NCBI GenBank assembly: GCA_012735135.1
Contig: JAAYHY010000069.1
Coordinates: 1 to 50,006 of the forward strand
DNA length: 50,006 nucleotides
Reading direction: 5' to 3'
From: Bacillota bacterium
GTDB taxonomy: Bacteria > Bacillota > UBA4882 > UBA10575
Of the stretch, positions 35,880 through 46,393 are shown in pieces. The notes beneath the pieces were generated by a model, which had not been told where the DNA came from, did not search any database, and saw nothing but the letters and a program-made list of their open reading frames with translations. Position 1 is the first letter of the stretch. Each line of letters begins with the position of its first letter. The translations under genes and the position numbers were made by a program.

Positions 35880-36034
35880 AATCATTCTGGCCACCCCTTT
35901 GGCGCCGGGTAAAATTTGCCGCGCAAAATGGGTACACGCATCTTTTCCGTACGAGAGGCGTACACTCCTTCGACGTGTGCATACCAGATGGCGTAGCTTC
36001 GTGCGGAGCTAATTTTTTCGAAAGGAAGACCGTC

Positions 36035-39000
36035 ATGAAGGAACTGGCAAAAAAAATTATTGAAAAAAACCGGCTCGTTATTGTTCTTTTTACCCTTGTC
36101 ACCTTAATATTTGGCATTTTCCTCCGGGACTTGAAGATCAACCCCGATGTGCTCAGTTACTTCCCTAAAAACGACCCGGATGTCCAACTCTTCAACTACC
36201 TGGGTGAGGAATATGGTGGCAATTCTTTGGCCATGATTGTGCTGGAGACCGGGGATATCTTCACCACTGAAACCCTGACAGTCATTGATGAACTGACCAC
36301 CCGGTTTCAACTGGAACCGGGGGTCGCTTATGTGACTAGCCTCACCAATACGCTGGATATTAAAACGGACGAATACGGGTTTGAAATTGGACGGCTGGTC
36401 GACGTCACTAATTTACCCCGTGACCCGGACGCGTTGGCTGCATTAAAGGAGTACACCCTCTCCAAAGAGATGTTCCGCAATAACCTGGTCACCGAGGATG
36501 CCACCGCCACGCTCGTCATTTGCCGGCTCCAAACCAACACGGACCAGGTGGCGACCTGCCGCCGTTTAAAGGAGATCGTCGCCGAGACAGTTCCGGCCAT
36601 GAAAATCTATTACGGCGGAATCCCCTTCATGATTCTGGATTTACATAATATGATCACTGACGATCTGCAAATACTCATCCCCATGGTCAGCATAGTGATC
36701 GTCCTCTTTTTATACCTTGGCTTCCGTAAATGGGAAGGGGTTTTTCTGCCCCTGATCTCGGTGGCGGTAAGCCTCGTCTGGACTCTAGGGATCATGAGCC
36801 TCCTCAAGGTTCCACTGTCGATTATCTCCAATATCATCCCAGTGATCCTGATCGCCGTGGGAAATGCCTACACCATCCATGTGCTCAGCAGATTCAACGA
36901 AGCCCGGATTGCCCGTACCCGTGACTGCTTAGCTACGGCCTTGTATGAAGTGGCAACCCCGGTTTCTCTGGCCGGTATAACCACGATTGCCGGTTTCATC
37001 TCCTTCATTTTCGGTTCATACCTGGTCATGATTCAGGAGTTTGGTGTTTTTGCCGCTCTGGGCATCCTTTTCACCCTTCTCGTCTCCCTCGCCTTTATTC
37101 CGGCCCTTCTTGTCCTGGAAAAGAAGGAGCCGGACCAGAAGGCCAAAAAAGAGGAGAGAAGAAAAAGGTCGGCTCTTACCGGACGCATAACCCGGGGGAT
37201 CGAAAAACTGGTCACCAAAAGGCCAAAAGCCATTGTTTGGGTGGGTGTCTTCCTGGCCATCCTCGCCCTTACGGGTATCCCCCGGATCAGCCGTCGGGTC
37301 AACCTGGTCGAATACTTCCAGCCCCAGGCCCCAATCAGACAGGCGGAAACAATACTGGAGGAGAAATTTGGCGGTTCGGGTATTATCCAAATTTTAGCCG
37401 AAGGAGATATCCAAGACCCCGCGGTTTTACGGGAGATGGAGAAGCTGGAGGAGTTCCTGCTGGCCCAGGAAGGTATCCACAGCACCCAATCTGTAGTCAA
37501 CCTGCTCAAAGAGCTTAATCACGCCATGGGGGAAGAAAAAAACCTCCCGGATACCAAAGACAAGGTAATGAACCTCTGGTTCCTGCTGGAGGGCGAAGAG
37601 GTTATGACCCAGTTGGTCAATGCCGGACGGACGGAAGCGGTGATTCAGGCGCGAATAGTCGGAAGCTTGGAGGGTTCCCGCGCCCATAAACTAGTCCGAA
37701 CAATCAATGAATATACCGCCGGGATCGACCCGGAACTGGTTAAATTCAGCCAGACCGGGATGCCGGTCATCTACCGGAACCTGGATCTCTCCATCCTCAA
37801 GAGCCAATTCCAGAGTTTATTCATTGCCTTGCTTATGATCTTCCTCATCATGCTCTTCCTCCTTGGTTCACTGGCCGGCGGTTTGCTCGGCCTGGTTCCG
37901 ATCCTTTTCACCCTGGTCCTGATCTTTGGGTTCATGGGTTACGGCAAGATCCCCCTGGATATCGCCACCGTGCTTGTGGCGAGTGTCACCATTGGGATCG
38001 GTATTGATTATTCCATTCACTTTTTAAGCCGTTACCGCCAGGAACTGGCGCGCGCGTCCGCGGAGAAGCGGCCGGTAGAAATTGCGGTACGAACCACCTT
38101 AAACACCACGGGAGGGGCAATTCTGATCAACGTCTTCACCGTGGCCTTTGGCTTCCTGTCCCTTGTCTTTTGCCAGCTTGTCCCCATTCAACGTTTTGGG
38201 ATCCTGATCTTCGTTACCATGCTGGGTTCCGGCTTTGGCGCTATCCTCCTGCTCCCCGCAATTTTACTTCTGTATGGCGCCCGGTTGAACCTCCGTCCGG
38301 TCGCCGGCAGGGAAAAGGGGAAAAAAACTGATCTGGAAATAAGGAAAGGAGAGAGGAGAATGAAGAGATCCCTTTTCTACTTTGGATTATTACTCATCCT
38401 TCCCGGGTTGCTGTTTTCCGCGGCCGCTGCCGGGAGTCTTACCGCCGAGGAAATCATGGAACGGATTGACCAGACGGTCAGCGCTCCCCGGGACCAAGAA
38501 TTACACGTAAAACTGGTGATTACCGATGCCAAAGGGAACGAAAGCCACCGGGAGATGGTGCTGATGCAGAAAGGAAGCGACCGGCGGGTAGTAAAATTCA
38601 CCGCTCCGCCGGAACAAAGGGGTATTGCCTTCCTTTCCCTCCCCGGGGGCATGACCTATCTCTATCTGCCGGCTTACAAGCAAACCCGGCGCATCGCCGC
38701 GCATGTCCGGAACCAGAAATTTGCCGGGACCGACTTCTCCTATGAAGATATGGAAGCCCGGAAATACAGCACTGATTGGAATGCAAAACTACTGGCGGAA
38801 GAGGAGGGTCTCTACCGTTTGGAGTTGACACCGAAAGAAAAGACCGTTACCGATTACGGGCGGTTAATCGTGGAGGTTAAGGCCGATATCTTCTTCCCGG
38901 TTACAATTGAATTCTTCGATAAAGCGAACCGGCCACGGAAAGTGATGATCCAGGAGAAACTGGAACAGATTAACGGTTACTGGATAGCGCGGGAAGCTGA

Positions 39001-39109
39001 GATGAAGGATTTACAGGCCGGCACTTCATCGAAGATGTTCTTTACTGAAGTGAAATTTGACAGCGGTCTTCCGGATGATATCTTTACCGAACGCTACCTG
39101 AGCCGCTGA
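36035..39109 (+). CDS. RND/MMPL exporter fused in frame to a LolA-like protein
   Basis: A 1024-residue reading frame; ATG at 36035 follows GAAAGGAAG. Residues 1-775 are an RND transporter of the MMPL type with two six-helix halves and two large extracytoplasmic loops; the second half has the proton-relay motif GIGIDYSIHFLSRYR, while the first reads VGNAYTIHVLSRFNEA without the Asp. Residues 776-1024 are an outer-membrane lipoprotein-sorting-like (LolA fold) protein that still carries its own Met, signal peptide and ribosome site. The joint passes through a run of seven A (38321-38327); adding or removing one A would create a stop before the second part. Such proteins move lipids or hydrophobic molecules across the periplasm. 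A beta-barrel gene follows. Confidence 0.82.
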   Translation: MKELAKKIIEKNRLVIVLFTLVTLIFGIFLRDLKINPDVLSYFPKNDPDVQLFNYLGEEYGGNSLAMIVLETGDIFTTETLTVIDELTTRFQLEPGVAYVTSLTNTLDIKTDEYGFEIGRLVDVTNLPRDPDALAALKEYTLSKEMFRNNLVTEDATATLVICRLQTNTDQVATCRRLKEIVAETVPAMKIYYGGIPFMILDLHNMITDDLQILIPMVSIVIVLFLYLGFRKWEGVFLPLISVAVSLVWTLGIMSLLKVPLSIISNIIPVILIAVGNAYTIHVLSRFNEARIARTRDCLATALYEVATPVSLAGITTIAGFISFIFGSYLVMIQEFGVFAALGILFTLLVSLAFIPALLVLEKKEPDQKAKKEERRKRSALTGRITRGIEKLVTKRPKAIVWVGVFLAILALTGIPRISRRVNLVEYFQPQAPIRQAETILEEKFGGSGIIQILAEGDIQDPAVLREMEKLEEFLLAQEGIHSTQSVVNLLKELNHAMGEEKNLPDTKDKVMNLWFLLEGEEVMTQLVNAGRTEAVIQARIVGSLEGSRAHKLVRTINEYTAGIDPELVKFSQTGMPVIYRNLDLSILKSQFQSLFIALLMIFLIMLFLLGSLAGGLLGLVPILFTLVLIFGFMGYGKIPLDIATVLVASVTIGIGIDYSIHFLSRYRQELARASAEKRPVEIAVRTTLNTTGGAILINVFTVAFGFLSLVFCQLVPIQRFGILIFVTMLGSGFGAILLLPAILLLYGARLNLRPVAGREKGKKTDLEIRKGERRMKRSLFYFGLLLILPGLLFSAAAAGSLTAEEIMERIDQTVSAPRDQELHVKLVITDAKGNESHREMVLMQKGSDRRVVKFTAPPEQRGIAFLSLPGGMTYLYLPAYKQTRRIAAHVRNQKFAGTDFSYEDMEARKYSTDWNAKLLAEEEGLYRLELTPKEKTVTDYGRLIVEVKADIFFPVTIEFFDKANRPRKVMIQEKLEQINGYWIAREAEMKDLQAGTSSKMFFTEVKFDSGLPDDIFTERYLSR
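38360..39109 (+). CDS. LolA-like outer membrane lipoprotein-sorting protein, possible independent start inside the fusion
   Basis: ATG at 38360 stands directly behind AAGGAAAGGAGAGAGGAGA, far better than a chance match, and opens a signal peptide (MKRSLFYFGLLLILPGLLFS then AAAAGS). The mature part has LTAEEIMERIDQTV, HREMVLMQKGSDRRVVKF, ERQ-type turn APPEQRGIAFLSL and GTDFSYEDMEARKYS, as in PF17131-type proteins paired with RND exporters. The 249-residue size is normal for a free-standing periplasmic carrier. Translation could start here independently, giving a separate protein besides the fusion. Confidence 0.6.
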   Translation: MKRSLFYFGLLLILPGLLFSAAAAGSLTAEEIMERIDQTVSAPRDQELHVKLVITDAKGNESHREMVLMQKGSDRRVVKFTAPPEQRGIAFLSLPGGMTYLYLPAYKQTRRIAAHVRNQKFAGTDFSYEDMEARKYSTDWNAKLLAEEEGLYRLELTPKEKTVTDYGRLIVEVKADIFFPVTIEFFDKANRPRKVMIQEKLEQINGYWIAREAEMKDLQAGTSSKMFFTEVKFDSGLPDDIFTERYLSR

Positions 39110-41631: not shown

Positions 41632-42243
41632 ATGTGGCAATTATTTTTAAGCGGTGGCCCGGTAATGTATCCTTTACTATTCTGTTCTATACTGGTGCTG
41701 GCCATTGCCATTGAACGGCTGTGGTATTTTCTGAGTCAGCGGGGAGATATGGATGAAATAAGGAGAATTGTTTTCCGCCTGATGGAGAAAAATGCTCCTC
41801 TGGAAGCCATTCAATATTTGCAAAAGCAAAACCAACCAGTGGCACGGATGTTTCAAGCCGCTTTACTGCATTTCGGAAAAGACCGCGCTCAAATCGAGGT
41901 GACCCTCAGGGAAGCGGGGGAGGCGGAGATTAGAAAAATGGAACGGGGTTTGGGGTTACTTAACGTCATTATTACCGCCGCCCCGCTCTTAGGGCTTTTG
42001 GGTACCGTAACCGGGATTATCAGCAGCCTTAATGTTTTATCGGCCTTACAAGGGGTGGCTTCCCCGGCCCAATTGAGCGGCGGAATTGCCGAAGCGTTGG
42101 TGACCACGGCTTTTGGTTTGATTATTGCCATTCCTTCACTCTTTCTATTGCATGGGTTGAATGTGGCGATCGATAAAAAGATTCATTTGCTGAACCAGAT
42201 GGGTAAAGAATTTATGGACAACTACGAGAACCGAGGTGAGTAA
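41632..42243 (+). CDS. MotA/TolQ/ExbB proton channel family protein
   Basis: A 203-residue inner-membrane stator subunit with three helices: one near the N-terminus (PVMYPLLFCSILVLAIAIER) and two in the C-terminal half (LLNVIITAAPLLGLLGTVTG, IAEALVTTAFGLIIAIPSLF). The TolQ/ExbB signature with AAPLLGLLGTVTGII and TTAFGLIIAIP is complete. With ExbD it turns proton flow into movement of a TonB- or TolA-like partner. ATG follows AAAGGAGGAGACGAT. It is the first gene of a five-gene operon and overlaps the start region of the ExbD gene. Confidence 0.94.
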   Translation: MWQLFLSGGPVMYPLLFCSILVLAIAIERLWYFLSQRGDMDEIRRIVFRLMEKNAPLEAIQYLQKQNQPVARMFQAALLHFGKDRAQIEVTLREAGEAEIRKMERGLGLLNVIITAAPLLGLLGTVTGIISSLNVLSALQGVASPAQLSGGIAEALVTTAFGLIIAIPSLFLLHGLNVAIDKKIHLLNQMGKEFMDNYENRGE

Positions 42244-42244
42244 G

Positions 42245-42646
42245 ATGCTATTCCGGCGGCAAAAGCGGATTCCCCGGATTGATATTGTTCCGATGATCGA
42301 TATCATGTTTTACCTCGTTCTCTTTTTTATGGTCTTTACGACTTTCCGCACCTCGGTCTCGGGGATTCCCGTGGAGTTACCCCGTTCCAACCAAGCGGCT
42401 AATTTAGTACAAGAACGGGTGATGGTCACCATCAACCGTCAAGAAAAGGTGTTCTATAACGATCAGGAGATTTCTTTAACTAAATTAACACAGACCTTAA
42501 CCCCTTTAGCGCAGGCTAACCCGAATATATTGGTGATCATCAATGCCGACACCCAAGTTTCTTACGGAAGATTGATTGCGGTGATGGACGCCATCACCGA
42601 CGCCGGGGTCGCCCAACCGGCCTTAGGGGTAGAAAAGAAAAAATAA
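42245..42646 (+). CDS. ExbD/TolR biopolymer transport protein
   Basis: A 133-residue protein with one N-terminal membrane helix carrying the essential Asp in RIDIVPMIDIMFYLVLFFMV, then a periplasmic domain (NPNILVIINADTQVSYGRLI). This is the ExbB partner in the pmf-driven motor. ATG at 42245 follows GAGGTGAG; a GTG at 42236 would add three residues and overlap the exbB stop. The tight spacing shows coupling. Confidence 0.93.
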   Translation: MLFRRQKRIPRIDIVPMIDIMFYLVLFFMVFTTFRTSVSGIPVELPRSNQAANLVQERVMVTINRQEKVFYNDQEISLTKLTQTLTPLAQANPNILVIINADTQVSYGRLIAVMDAITDAGVAQPALGVEKKK

Positions 42647-42681
42647 AGCGCTATCCACGGTGCTCACTAGGAGGTTTCATA

Positions 42682-43527
42682 ATGGATAAACTCCGCTCCG
42701 GAGAATTTACACGCAAGGTCGGGTCTTTTCTTCTGGCTGTGGGGTTGCATGCCCTGATTTTACTTATTCATGGTAGTGGGTACTGGGCTAGCGGCGATGA
42801 ACTTGGGTTCACATTAATCCAGCCGCAACTGATCGAAATCGAACCGGTCCGGAAAGAAGCGCGGACCCAACCGCAAAAGCCGCCGTCCACCCCAAAACCA
42901 ACCGCCTCGGCGGCAAAAACCCCTCCAACTCAGGAACAACCGGCTCCTCCTCCCGTGGAAAAGCCCCTTACTTCCATTGAAGAGGTTCACCAGGAAAATC
43001 CGGCCCCGCGGGAGACCAGGACGGAACCGGGAGAGGTGGCGACCGGGCTTGAAGTTGCGGAAAGCAGCGAAGAAACCGGAAAGGAGCCCAGTCCGGTGAC
43101 GAACGGGGGTTCAACGGAAAGCGAGGGTGACCCCCAGGCTGAAGGCGAAACCGAAACTAACGAGCCGGCTGTGCCGGCCCTTCCGCCGCTGGGTGCAGCC
43201 GGCGGAATGGCGGGCGCGGTTCCCCGGTTCACTTATCCTAAGGGTGCAGAACATCTGGGCCTGGAAGGAAGGGTCTTGATGGAAATCTATCTGTCTCCGG
43301 ATGGCACCTTCTTAAAGGATCCAGTGATGCTTGCTTCTTCCGGTCATGAAGCATTGGACGACCATTGCCGGAGAATGTTTACCTCAAGAGAATGGAAGTT
43401 TAAACCAGCGGCTCAGCCCTATAAACTCCAGGTGGAAGTGGGTTATAAAAATTATGAAGTAACGATTGATTTTTTGGGGGAAGCAGCTTACCTTTCACCG
43501 GAGGAAGGAGGAGAATTGATTGAATAG
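42682..43527 (+). CDS. TonB-like energy transducer
   Basis: A 281-residue protein with an N-terminal membrane anchor (VGSFLLAVGLHALILLIHG), a long Pro/Glu/Thr-rich spacer (residues ~65-165) for crossing the periplasm, and a C-terminal TonB-fold domain (RFTYPKGAEHLGLEGRVLME, IYLSPDGTFLKDPVMLASSG, HEALDDHC). ATG follows TAGGAGGTTTCATA. The complete ExbB-ExbD-TonB set implies an outer membrane receptor to energise; no TonB-dependent receptor gene is in the window. An alternative is TolA-like envelope maintenance. Confidence 0.9.
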   Translation: MDKLRSGEFTRKVGSFLLAVGLHALILLIHGSGYWASGDELGFTLIQPQLIEIEPVRKEARTQPQKPPSTPKPTASAAKTPPTQEQPAPPPVEKPLTSIEEVHQENPAPRETRTEPGEVATGLEVAESSEETGKEPSPVTNGGSTESEGDPQAEGETETNEPAVPALPPLGAAGGMAGAVPRFTYPKGAEHLGLEGRVLMEIYLSPDGTFLKDPVMLASSGHEALDDHCRRMFTSREWKFKPAAQPYKLQVEVGYKNYEVTIDFLGEAAYLSPEEGGELIE

Positions 43528-45658
43528 GAAATCTAGGAATAGATGGCTTTCCATCTTTATTCTCGTGCTCTGTCTTATGGCGGTCTCCCTTGGGTTACCC
43601 GCCCAGGAGCCGGCGGTCTTTACCACAGGCGGGACGGGGAAAACAGTGGTTGGACAAGAAACTGACGGCAGCAAACCGGCGCTTCCCGCTTCTCTTCACC
43701 GGGACCCGGATCGTATAATTCTGGAAAATGAATATATTGCGGTGGCGGTGAATAATTCGGCCGATGCCACCGGCCGTTTTGGCATTAAAGTTACCGGCGG
43801 GGATCCCATGCGCACCGGTGACGAGGAAAAACCATTGATCTATGGCTACGAGATGCCCTGGACCTCATTTACCACCGTCCGGTTGGACGGCAAGGATTAC
43901 ATATTTGGGGGTAAAACACGTAAACGTTCCGGTGGAACCGGCGAGTACGGGACGATTATCCATGGTCCCGCCTGGAATAGTGAGACGGAGAGTATCACCA
44001 TGACCTGCCAGTATGGTTCCGTCGAGGTGACACAGGAGATCTCGATCGTCGAAAGCACAACGACGGGTTATCCTGATACAACCAAAATTAAGTATTCCAT
44101 CGTCAACCGGGATCAGCAAGCCCACGAGGTTGGGCTTCGTGTGGTAATTGATACGATGTTGGGGGCGAATGATGGCGCTCCCTTCCGGATTGGGGAAACC
44201 GCGGTCCAAACCGACGCGGTCTTTAATAAGGAGCGGCTGCCCGAATTTTGGCAGGCCTTTGACACCCTTACGGATCCGAAGGTCATTGCCCAAGGAACCC
44301 TGAAGGGAAGGGAGGCAACCCCTCCGGATTTGCTTTACTTTACGAACTGGGGTAGCGTGGCCGATAACCATTGGGAACCGCCTTTGGTTCCGGACCGGGA
44401 TTTTACCCGGGCCGGCGAATTTGAACTGGACAGCGCTGCGGTTTATCTATGGCAACCAGTGACGGTGCCGGCGGCCGGCAGTTCCACTTATGTCCTTTAC
44501 TATGGGTTGGGCGGGGTAACCGTTGTTCCGGGCCAACTCCAGTTGGGTGTCAGTTCTCCAGCGGAGGTTGTTTATTCCGATGATGAAGACCCCTTTTCTG
44601 TGGTGGCCTACATTCAAAATACCGGAAACGCTCCGGCCATGAGTGTGCGGGCCCGTTTGAATTTACCGTCGGCCCTACGCATTGCCGAGAATAAACCAAG
44701 AGAAATCTACATTGGGAAACTGGACCCCGGGGAAGTAACCCAGTTGCACTGGCAAGTTCGACCCACCGGAACCGTTTTTGGCGTCCTTGAACCCTTTTCG
44801 GTGGTGGCTTCCGCGATTAATGTTCCGGAGAACCGGGTAGAAAGAAGTATCCGGGTGGTGAAGCCGGCGTCCTTAACCCTAAGCGTCACTCCGCCTCCGA
44901 CCCCAAAGGTGGTGAATGAACGTCTGACCCCCGATCCCTACCCGGTCAGCGCCGTGATTAAAAACACGGGAGAATCCAACGCTTATGGGGTAATCGGCAG
45001 TCTACAATTGGGCGAAGGGATGCAACCGGCGCCCAAAGAGATCCTCCGGCGGTATATTGGCAATCTAAAACCAGGGGAAGAATATAAGATCACATGGTAC
45101 CTTACTCCGGAAGGAATCGGGAAACGTTCCTATCTTGGGATTCAATTCGAATCAAATTCCACCAAACCGGTGATGTATATTGCCGGGGTGCGTTTACCTA
45201 TTCTCATCCCTAAGGTGCGTTTAGTTCCATTAAAGACGGCGAAGGCCGGGGAACTGCTTCCCGTCGAAATCCGGGTGGAGAATCTTCCGATGCTGACCGG
45301 GGCAAAATTTGATCTGACGTATAATCCCGGTTTAATGCAGGTCATTAGGGTGTCAAGGGGATTGTTCTTTATTGAGAACCAGGCGATGACCCCTTGGCAA
45401 CCGGGGATGATTGACAACGCCACCGGGGTGGTGACCGGGATCGGCGGGTCACGGCAAGAAGCGGCAATGGTCAGTTCCTCGTTGGCGACGGTCCACCTCC
45501 AACTGGGAAAAAACCCCGGGGAAGCGATTTTGAGGCCAATGGCGATTAAACTTGAAAGCGCGGTGGCGAAGATTCCCTATTACGAAGTGGAAGGTCTAAA
45601 GATAACCATCAACCAACAAGGGGGTGTGCAAATTGAGACAATTAAGGTGGAGCAATGA
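43520..45658 (+). CDS. large secreted protein with Ig-like repeats and cohesin-like C-terminus
   Basis: A 712-residue protein I cannot assign. TTG at 43520 overlaps the tonB stop and follows GAAGGAGGAGAA. A signal peptide (RWLSIFILVLCLMAVSLGLP) ends near AQE. Residues ~45-330 look like a beta-rich domain with a substrate-handling look (ILENEYIAVAVNNSADATGR, GYEMPWTSFTTVRLDGKDYI). Two CARDB-like Ig repeats follow at ~345-450 and ~455-565, each with an xNTGxxxA segment (AYIQNTGNAPAMSVRARL, AVIKNTGESNAYGVIGSL). The C-terminal ~130 residues resemble a cohesin fold (AGELLPVEIRVENLPMLTGA, KFDLTYNPGLMQV). It is fixed between tonB and the SLH gene, so an extracytoplasmic partner of that motor is inferred. 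Confidence 0.75.
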   Translation: MNRKSRNRWLSIFILVLCLMAVSLGLPAQEPAVFTTGGTGKTVVGQETDGSKPALPASLHRDPDRIILENEYIAVAVNNSADATGRFGIKVTGGDPMRTGDEEKPLIYGYEMPWTSFTTVRLDGKDYIFGGKTRKRSGGTGEYGTIIHGPAWNSETESITMTCQYGSVEVTQEISIVESTTTGYPDTTKIKYSIVNRDQQAHEVGLRVVIDTMLGANDGAPFRIGETAVQTDAVFNKERLPEFWQAFDTLTDPKVIAQGTLKGREATPPDLLYFTNWGSVADNHWEPPLVPDRDFTRAGEFELDSAAVYLWQPVTVPAAGSSTYVLYYGLGGVTVVPGQLQLGVSSPAEVVYSDDEDPFSVVAYIQNTGNAPAMSVRARLNLPSALRIAENKPREIYIGKLDPGEVTQLHWQVRPTGTVFGVLEPFSVVASAINVPENRVERSIRVVKPASLTLSVTPPPTPKVVNERLTPDPYPVSAVIKNTGESNAYGVIGSLQLGEGMQPAPKEILRRYIGNLKPGEEYKITWYLTPEGIGKRSYLGIQFESNSTKPVMYIAGVRLPILIPKVRLVPLKTAKAGELLPVEIRVENLPMLTGAKFDLTYNPGLMQVIRVSRGLFFIENQAMTPWQPGMIDNATGVVTGIGGSRQEAAMVSSSLATVHLQLGKNPGEAILRPMAIKLESAVAKIPYYEVEGLKITINQQGGVQIETIKVEQ

Positions 45659-46322
45659 ACGGGGGATGAAGGCGGTAATTTTGGGCTTGTGCCTCTTACT
45701 CATCGCCGGACCGGCGCTTGGCCAGAGCCGTCCCTATTCCGATGTGCCGCAGTGGGCTTACCAAGCCGTCAAGAAACTGGTAGACAGCGGTTACCTGGAA
45801 CTTTATGAAGACGGTACTTTCCAGGGAAACAATCCGGTTGACCGTTATACCCTGGCGATGGTAGTCGCGAAGTTATTAGCCAATTTTGGAGAAGGGCCCG
45901 TCCGCGGAGGACAAGAAGATGTGGCTTTACTCCGTAAACTCTCCAACGAGTTCCAGAACGAATTGGTTCTGCTTACACTTAAGGACAAAGAATTGGAAGC
46001 ACGTTTAGTCCAAATTGAACAAGGAAAGTTGATCCTGGCGGAAGATCAGACGAAGAATACAACCAGCATCCAAACGCTCTCTGAAGAAGCCAAGGCATTA
46101 CGGACGGAGATTGTAAACCTCCGGAGCCAGGTTGCCGAGTTACTTAAGGAAAAAAACCGTTTAGAGGCCCAACTGTATACTCTGGAAAAAAACCAGGAAA
46201 AACAGAAGGATGCGATCGAGAGCTTAAAGGCCGAACTGGCGCAGGAGAAAAAGACCAACCGGATCTTACTGCTCTTTGTGGCCTTGGTTGGCGCGGCTGG
46301 AATCTTCCTCCCCGCCCAATAA
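45633..46322 (+). CDS. SLH-domain, coiled-coil, C-terminal membrane-helix protein (Omp-alpha-like)
   Basis: A 229-residue exported protein. A signal peptide (MKAVILGLCLLLIAGPALGQ) is followed by one SLH domain at residues ~33-78 (PYSDVPQWAYQAVKKLVDSG, FQGNNPVDRYTLAMVVAKLL), then ~115 residues of heptad-rich coiled coil (LEARLVQIEQGKLI, LRSQVAELLKEKNRLEAQLY), and one C-terminal membrane helix (ILLLFVALVGAAGIFL). SLH domains bind cell-wall polymers. The order SLH - rod - terminal membrane helix is that of Thermotoga Omp-alpha, which ties the outer sheath to the wall. TTG at 45633 follows AAGGGGGTG inside the preceding gene; ATG 45666 is an alternative. Confidence 0.82.
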   Translation: MRQLRWSNERGMKAVILGLCLLLIAGPALGQSRPYSDVPQWAYQAVKKLVDSGYLELYEDGTFQGNNPVDRYTLAMVVAKLLANFGEGPVRGGQEDVALLRKLSNEFQNELVLLTLKDKELEARLVQIEQGKLILAEDQTKNTTSIQTLSEEAKALRTEIVNLRSQVAELLKEKNRLEAQLYTLEKNQEKQKDAIESLKAELAQEKKTNRILLLFVALVGAAGIFLPAQ

Positions 46323-46364: not shown

Positions 46365-46393
46365 TTGACAACCGCATTCCGCTCGTTTATAAT
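46365..46393 (+). promoter_or_regulatory. consensus sigma-A promoter before the DUF177 gene
   Basis: TTGACA (46365-46370), exactly 17 bases, TATAAT (46388-46393): a perfect match. Initiation near 46400 leaves only about seven bases before the GTG start, with GAGGTGA near the 5' end of the transcript. Confidence 0.88.

Follow-up and report, generated by a model that had tools for sequence, protein, structure and literature searches.

In the Tol-Pal system, the pull of TolA on TolB frees Pal, which then binds the cell wall (PMC7391070). Tol-Pal is confined to the Gracilicutes, and Ton systems occur among diderm Firmicutes only in the Negativicutes (PMC12204202); diderm Firmicutes and atypical diderms are without tolB and pal and have kept Tol parts only in reduced form (PMC8871954), and Tol and TonB are unmentioned in PMC5007114. 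In Thermotoga, the protein Omp-alpha, found in the toga, is a spacer between outer membrane and wall (PMC3387000). We analyzed a stretch of 50,006 nucleotides (the window) from a Bacillota bacterium (GCA_012735135.1, contig JAAYHY010000069.1, our C29; assembly of 2.56 Mb with 99% completeness), whose named relatives are metagenome-assembled genomes labelled Hydrogenispora, Limnochordia or unclassified Bacillota. At 41632-46322, all on the plus strand, exbB, exbD and tonB genes are followed by those for a secreted protein of 712 residues (P712) and for a rod with an SLH domain. With a probability of roughly 0.6, we read this operon by analogy as encoding a Tol-Pal-like machine driven by proton motive force (pmf), which would release or position an SLH tether linking the wall to the outer membrane, P712 taking the place of TolB and the rod that of Pal.

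A scan of GTDB contigs for P712 yielded 65 loci, and the arrangement ExbB-ExbD-TonB-P712-SLH was found in the same order and on one strand in about 47 loci, namely 46 close ones (L031-L075 and L078) and the window. The order is fully intact in 37 loci; the remainder are interrupted by contig ends or runs of N, except for L078, which has one broken frame. An apparent loss of the rod in L063 and L075 was rejected, since N-gaps inside the rod gene explain both. Wherever a locus includes ExbD and the interval from ExbD to P712 is intact, a TonB-like open reading frame (ORF) is present too. The carriers include Fuchsiella alkaliacetigena and other Halobacteroidaceae, Limnochordia and Hydrogenispora, and the last two genes stay linked to exbBD-tonB in both Limnochordia and Halobacteroidaceae, as had been guessed beforehand. 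With this order repeated in so many loci, the linkage of the five genes is not due to chance.

We compared where P712 and the outer-membrane marker Omp85 occur. Of 149 genomes sampled from the phylum, 36 had Omp85 and 33 had full-length P712 (called at E below 1e-190), and all 33 P712 genomes, which span 17 families, also contained Omp85 (Fisher p 5.5e-30, a nominal value only, as the genomes are related); in a closer sample of 61 genomes the two co-occurred in 35/36. Given the overlaps of 33/33 and 33/36, P712 nearly serves as an outer-membrane marker in the sampled phylum, and, as judged from gene content, practically every diderm genome sampled from this part of the Firmicutes encodes the components of the module together. 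Genomes without Omp85 showed only the N-terminal domain of P712 or weak partial matches, often within long proteins. In L080-L095 this domain opens very long secreted proteins of Paenibacillus, Lachnospiraceae and Thermincola, some of them SLH-ended, with no ExbBD nearby; these Firmicutes are generally taken as monoderm. Such large secreted relatives, together with a motor superfamily shared with gliding machines (PMC7391070), might point to a gliding motor, or one that travels in the envelope, like AglRQS/GldLM, in which the rod would form part of a wall-adhesion complex. We consider this highly improbable, because presence follows the outer membrane and not lifestyle, the genome of the window has a flagellar gene cluster of its own, and no adhesin gene accompanies the operon.

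The residues on which the motor depends are conserved throughout. The pore threonines of ExbB (Thr125 and Thr159, corresponding to T148 and T181 of E. coli ExbB) and the proton-carrying Asp22 of ExbD (D25 in E. coli; numbered from an alignment with the solved ExbD structure) are invariant in 43/43 operon copies, so that a proton motor of the ExbB5-ExbD2 type with intact catalytic residues is predicted with confidence. With NCBIfam, ExbB matched tolQ best (95 bits vs 64 bits for exbB, both under cut-off) and ExbD ranked tolR above exbD (both under the equivalog cut-offs), and in a phmmer search against PDB chains ExbB was nearest to TolQ and ExbD nearest to ExbD. The ExbB sequences of the operon and those of receptor loci form separate groups (moderate support). 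The transducer consists of an N-terminal transmembrane helix, a proline-rich linker and a TonB_C domain, and its helix carries the motif with the motor-binding histidine, which reads SxxLH in most lineages, as in TolA of E. coli (SAVLH), whereas the clade of the window has Ala for Ser (AxxLH; AVGLH in the window). A dependence of transducer length on rod length was rejected, the relation being inconsistent across lineages.

The Ton system shares the ExbB-ExbD motor and TonB_C with the operon, but it requires a receptor to energize, and the operon itself contains no receptor gene. The receptor Plug domain is absent from 29/58 P712 genomes, including the closed genome G164, in which ExbD and TonB_C each occur just once; the motor is therefore not tied to TonB-dependent receptors. 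In the near-complete G006, one of two ExbB-family genes lies by its sole OmpA domain (a MotA beside a MotB-like protein) and the other in the operon, and there is a single TonB_C. Receptor loci often have their own TonB-ExbB-ExbD (L119, L121 and L122), whereas the genome of the window contains a single TonB-dependent receptor followed by TonB, with no ExbBD alongside (L117, G000 contig C147, 1342-4192). In a Ton-type energizer for import or export, ExbBD-TonB would power an outer-membrane receptor or exporter from another locus, which P712 and the rod would dock at the wall as scaffolds; the TonB_C domain would fit this, and so would the receptor-TonB pair of the window's genome, which could borrow the motor. 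It is nevertheless unlikely in view of the carriers devoid of receptors and of the receptor loci that supply a motor of their own.

P712 has four beta domains; a signal peptide is followed by a galactose-mutarotase-like supersandwich (~58-340), an immunoglobulin (Ig)/CARDB-like part (~340-560) and a C-terminal beta domain (~565-710). The AlphaFold2 model gave a mean predicted local distance difference test (pLDDT) score of 86.7 and a predicted TM-score (pTM) of 0.74, which suggests that the modelled domains can be trusted, their mutual arrangement less so; the N-domain modelled alone reached a pLDDT of 90 and a pTM of 0.90. A fold search with the full-length protein was set aside as uninformative because generic Ig-like repeats dominated it. 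With the N-domain, Foldseek gave best TM-scores of 0.58-0.59 for PnsB2 and a cyclic glucan synthase (~10% identity) and similar scores for GH94 phosphorylases and the periplasmic (P1) domain of YidC; domains of GH116 proteins and mutarotases are also similar in fold. Therefore, one might propose a glycan machine, in which the mutarotase-like domain would bind a wall polymer or lipopolysaccharide, the motor would drive assembly, export or remodelling, and the rod would be an anchor, and the concentration of the most conserved P712 residues in the N-domain would be in line with it. However, the similarity is at the level of fold (TM-score at most 0.59), no enzyme family was matched by sequence among the profiles run (Pfam and NCBIfam among them), and the same fold occurs in the non-catalytic PnsB2 and YidC P1 domains, so that this explanation seems quite unlikely. 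The original prediction had described P712 as secreted, with Ig-like and cohesin-like parts; the secretion signal and the Ig/CARDB part were borne out, whereas a cellulosomal cohesin identity was rejected (19.9 bits vs a cut-off of 24.1 bits, over profile positions 7-58 of 139), the C-terminal domain being weakly cohesin-like below threshold and over the first third of the profile only. The stretch NEYIRIVVN (P712 ~65-80, the mature start of many P712s) resembles EVRIVIDSG, the TolA-binding start of E. coli TolB (L123); we did not count this likeness, which is short, lies within a modelled strand and may be due to chance.

Every rod orthologue with a readable C-terminal end starts with a signal peptide, carries a single SLH domain and continues through a coiled coil that differs in length between orthologues (judged from the sequence and from weak matches to coiled-coil families) to the predicted membrane helix, a hydrophobic segment at the C-terminus. 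This layout is also that of Omp-alpha (OmpA1) of Thermotoga, with its N-terminal SLH domain, coiled-coil rod and ~20 hydrophobic C-terminal residues (PMC3387000), a likeness of layout; it differs in that the operon rod is encoded beside proton motor genes. The OmpM/SlpA tethers of diderm Terrabacteria share the SLH head and coiled coil, but the operon rod has no beta-barrel: an OmpM-type barrel in the longer orthologues was rejected, as these are longer rods with a single hydrophobic helix at the end. Away from the operon, the G164 genome encodes a protein in which SLH and coiled-coil parts are joined to a long, beta-rich region resembling OmpM. If the rod linked the inner, not the outer, membrane to the wall, in a link adjusted by the motor, its single C-terminal alpha helix would be a suitable anchor, and some orthologues do end in K or R. 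This arrangement is very unlikely, because most orthologues are without a basic tail, the similarly built Omp-alpha was found in the toga, i.e., the outer membrane (PMC3387000), and co-occurrence with Omp85 is strict. A second SLH-coiled-coil-helix rod in the genome of the window (L135 1078-1701, minus strand; G000 contig C79) has 207 residues and a TRYE motif; no motor gene adjoins it, and it is probably a plain Omp-alpha-like tether. The rod orthologue at L074 9861-14300 has 1480 residues and would measure ~200 nm if it formed a single continuous coiled coil; elsewhere the rod part comprises 120-450 residues.

In its order of roles the operon equals tolQ-tolR-tolA-tolB-pal of E. coli: two motor genes, a transducer, a soluble periplasmic protein and a wall-binding tether. 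A motor of the TolQ-TolR type, with ExbB nearer to TolQ than to ExbB models, and a TolA-type transducer, sharing the SxxLH motif in most lineages, were found. The TolB propeller and the OmpA-type lipoprotein Pal are absent, and P712 and the rod are unrelated to them in sequence and fold class. There is no TolB_N in the operon and only 1 weak match in 61 genomes; the operon likewise has no Pal, and the sole OmpA domain in the genome of the window belongs to MotB beside MotA. Since TolB and Pal were looked for and not found, the operon is likened to Tol-Pal by analogy and not classed as a member. The vWA force transducers and PorE, further proposed examples of motor-driven systems for the envelope or for tethering that do not belong to classical Tol-Pal (PMC12204202), differ in their domains and phyla; the operon has no vWA, TPR or propeller.

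For the Tol-Pal-like machine, we propose that proton flow through ExbBD would move the TonB-like protein across the wall, and that its C-terminal domain would grip P712, probably via beta-strand addition, as TolA does on TolB. P712 may keep the SLH rod, or the glycan next to it, mobile or unbound; once P712 is pulled, the rod would be freed, its SLH domain binding the wall and its C-terminal helix sitting in the outer membrane. Acting locally, e.g., at the division site, the machine might gather tethers and draw in the outer membrane with the wall, as Tol-Pal does in the Gracilicutes. A pmf-driven machine acting on the link between wall and outer membrane was already part of the original prediction, and linkage, co-occurrence with Omp85 and independence from receptors agree with it; the function itself, like the location of the rod helix in the outer membrane and a septal action, is what we infer. 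Several points weigh against this proposal. The contacts between the TonB-like protein and P712, and between P712 and the rod, are likewise ones that we infer; P712 has no TolB fold (its model is mutarotase-like and Ig-like), and no TonB-box or TolA-box was found as a separate conserved peptide at its N-terminus. The rod helix could instead be anchored in the inner membrane. Because the lone receptor locus on C147 has TonB but no ExbBD, the operon motor may also serve import in the genome of the window. Three of the 36 Omp85-positive genomes are without the operon (G056, G096 and G160, suspected to be Negativicutes) and retain ExbBD in receptor or ABC-import loci. Finally, the genes flanking the operon show no link to division and vary by lineage.

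The five ORFs of the operon are as originally described, overlapping or nearly touching (gaps of -8, +35, -8 and -35 nucleotides), with no terminator-like site seen between the five genes (41632-46322), and the proposed identities of the ExbB, ExbD, TonB and SLH proteins are upheld by Pfam matches, each, like that to CARDB, over its own cut-off (Table 1). An alternative start of the rod gene is possible at ATG 45666 instead of GTG 45624. As a perfect promoter motif (TTGACA-17-TATAAT; a sequence motif only) lies 43 bases 3' of the last stop, before yceD, and no terminator-like site lies inside, the transcription unit appears to end there. An Rfam scan of the window gave no matches.

Table 1. 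Coordinates of the operon genes and of the downstream promoter motif within the window.
Feature	Position	Strand	Evidence
ExbB/TolQ-type motor subunit, 203 aa	41632..42243	+	Pfam MotA_ExbB 2.9e-30
ExbD/TolR-type motor axle, 136 aa	42236..42646	+	Pfam ExbD 1e-28
TonB/TolA-type force transducer, 281 aa	42682..43527	+	Pfam TonB_C 2.7e-10
P712, secreted periplasmic protein, 712 aa	43520..45658	+	signal peptide; CARDB 1.7e-6; AlphaFold2; Foldseek
SLH-coiled coil-C-terminal helix rod, 232 aa	45624..46322	+	Pfam SLH 2e-7
Sigma-70-type promoter motif, candidate unit boundary	46365..46393	+	consensus scan, 12/12

Cohesion is limited to the five genes, and the flanks change with lineage. The family of the window has yceD-plsX-fabD downstream of the operon, in many Limnochordia it is preceded by spoIIA-like genes and dacF and followed by flagellar/chemotaxis-like genes, and in the Halobacteroidaceae it is followed by ndk (for the latter two groups, names were read from the sequence). 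Because these flanks differ among lineages, we rejected a role in division or in the envelope read from the neighbours. An additional SLH protein is encoded directly upstream of ExbB at L053 6968-7657 and L071 2172-2762, which suggests a six-gene version of the operon in these two loci. In one genus of the class Limnochordia, a protein with two OmpA domains is encoded close upstream on the opposite strand (G022 C27:26327-26947; G020 C128:7046-7669). Upstream of the operon, at 35975-39109 of the window, a single ORF of 1044 residues comprises an MMPL transporter and a LolA-like protein, the latter with a signal peptide of its own. The two are separate ORFs in L042; the single frame reflects a fusion or else the loss of a stop.

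The operon is real, conserved and apparently undescribed: as had been supposed before any search, no description of its five-gene content was found in the open-access collection that was searched, although an earlier mention in subscription papers is possible. Diderm Firmicutes and other Terrabacteria have been reported to be without tolB and pal (PMC8871954, PMC12204202), and so constriction of the outer membrane and its energized holding to the wall need an explanation in these organisms. A conserved module whose presence follows that of the outer membrane with hardly an exception is a concrete and testable candidate for energized tethering. That it is the general energized tether of the outer membrane in diderm Firmicutes outside the Negativicutes, i.e., an equivalent of Tol-Pal with TolB and Pal replaced by the unrelated P712 and SLH rod, is a tentative extension, to which we would give somewhat less than an even chance. 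The operon would bear on which of two tasks, import or tethering, the Ton/Tol motor took on first, and on how the outer membrane could be lost; if the general tether reading were true, motor-driven tethering would be older than Pal, or would have arisen twice.

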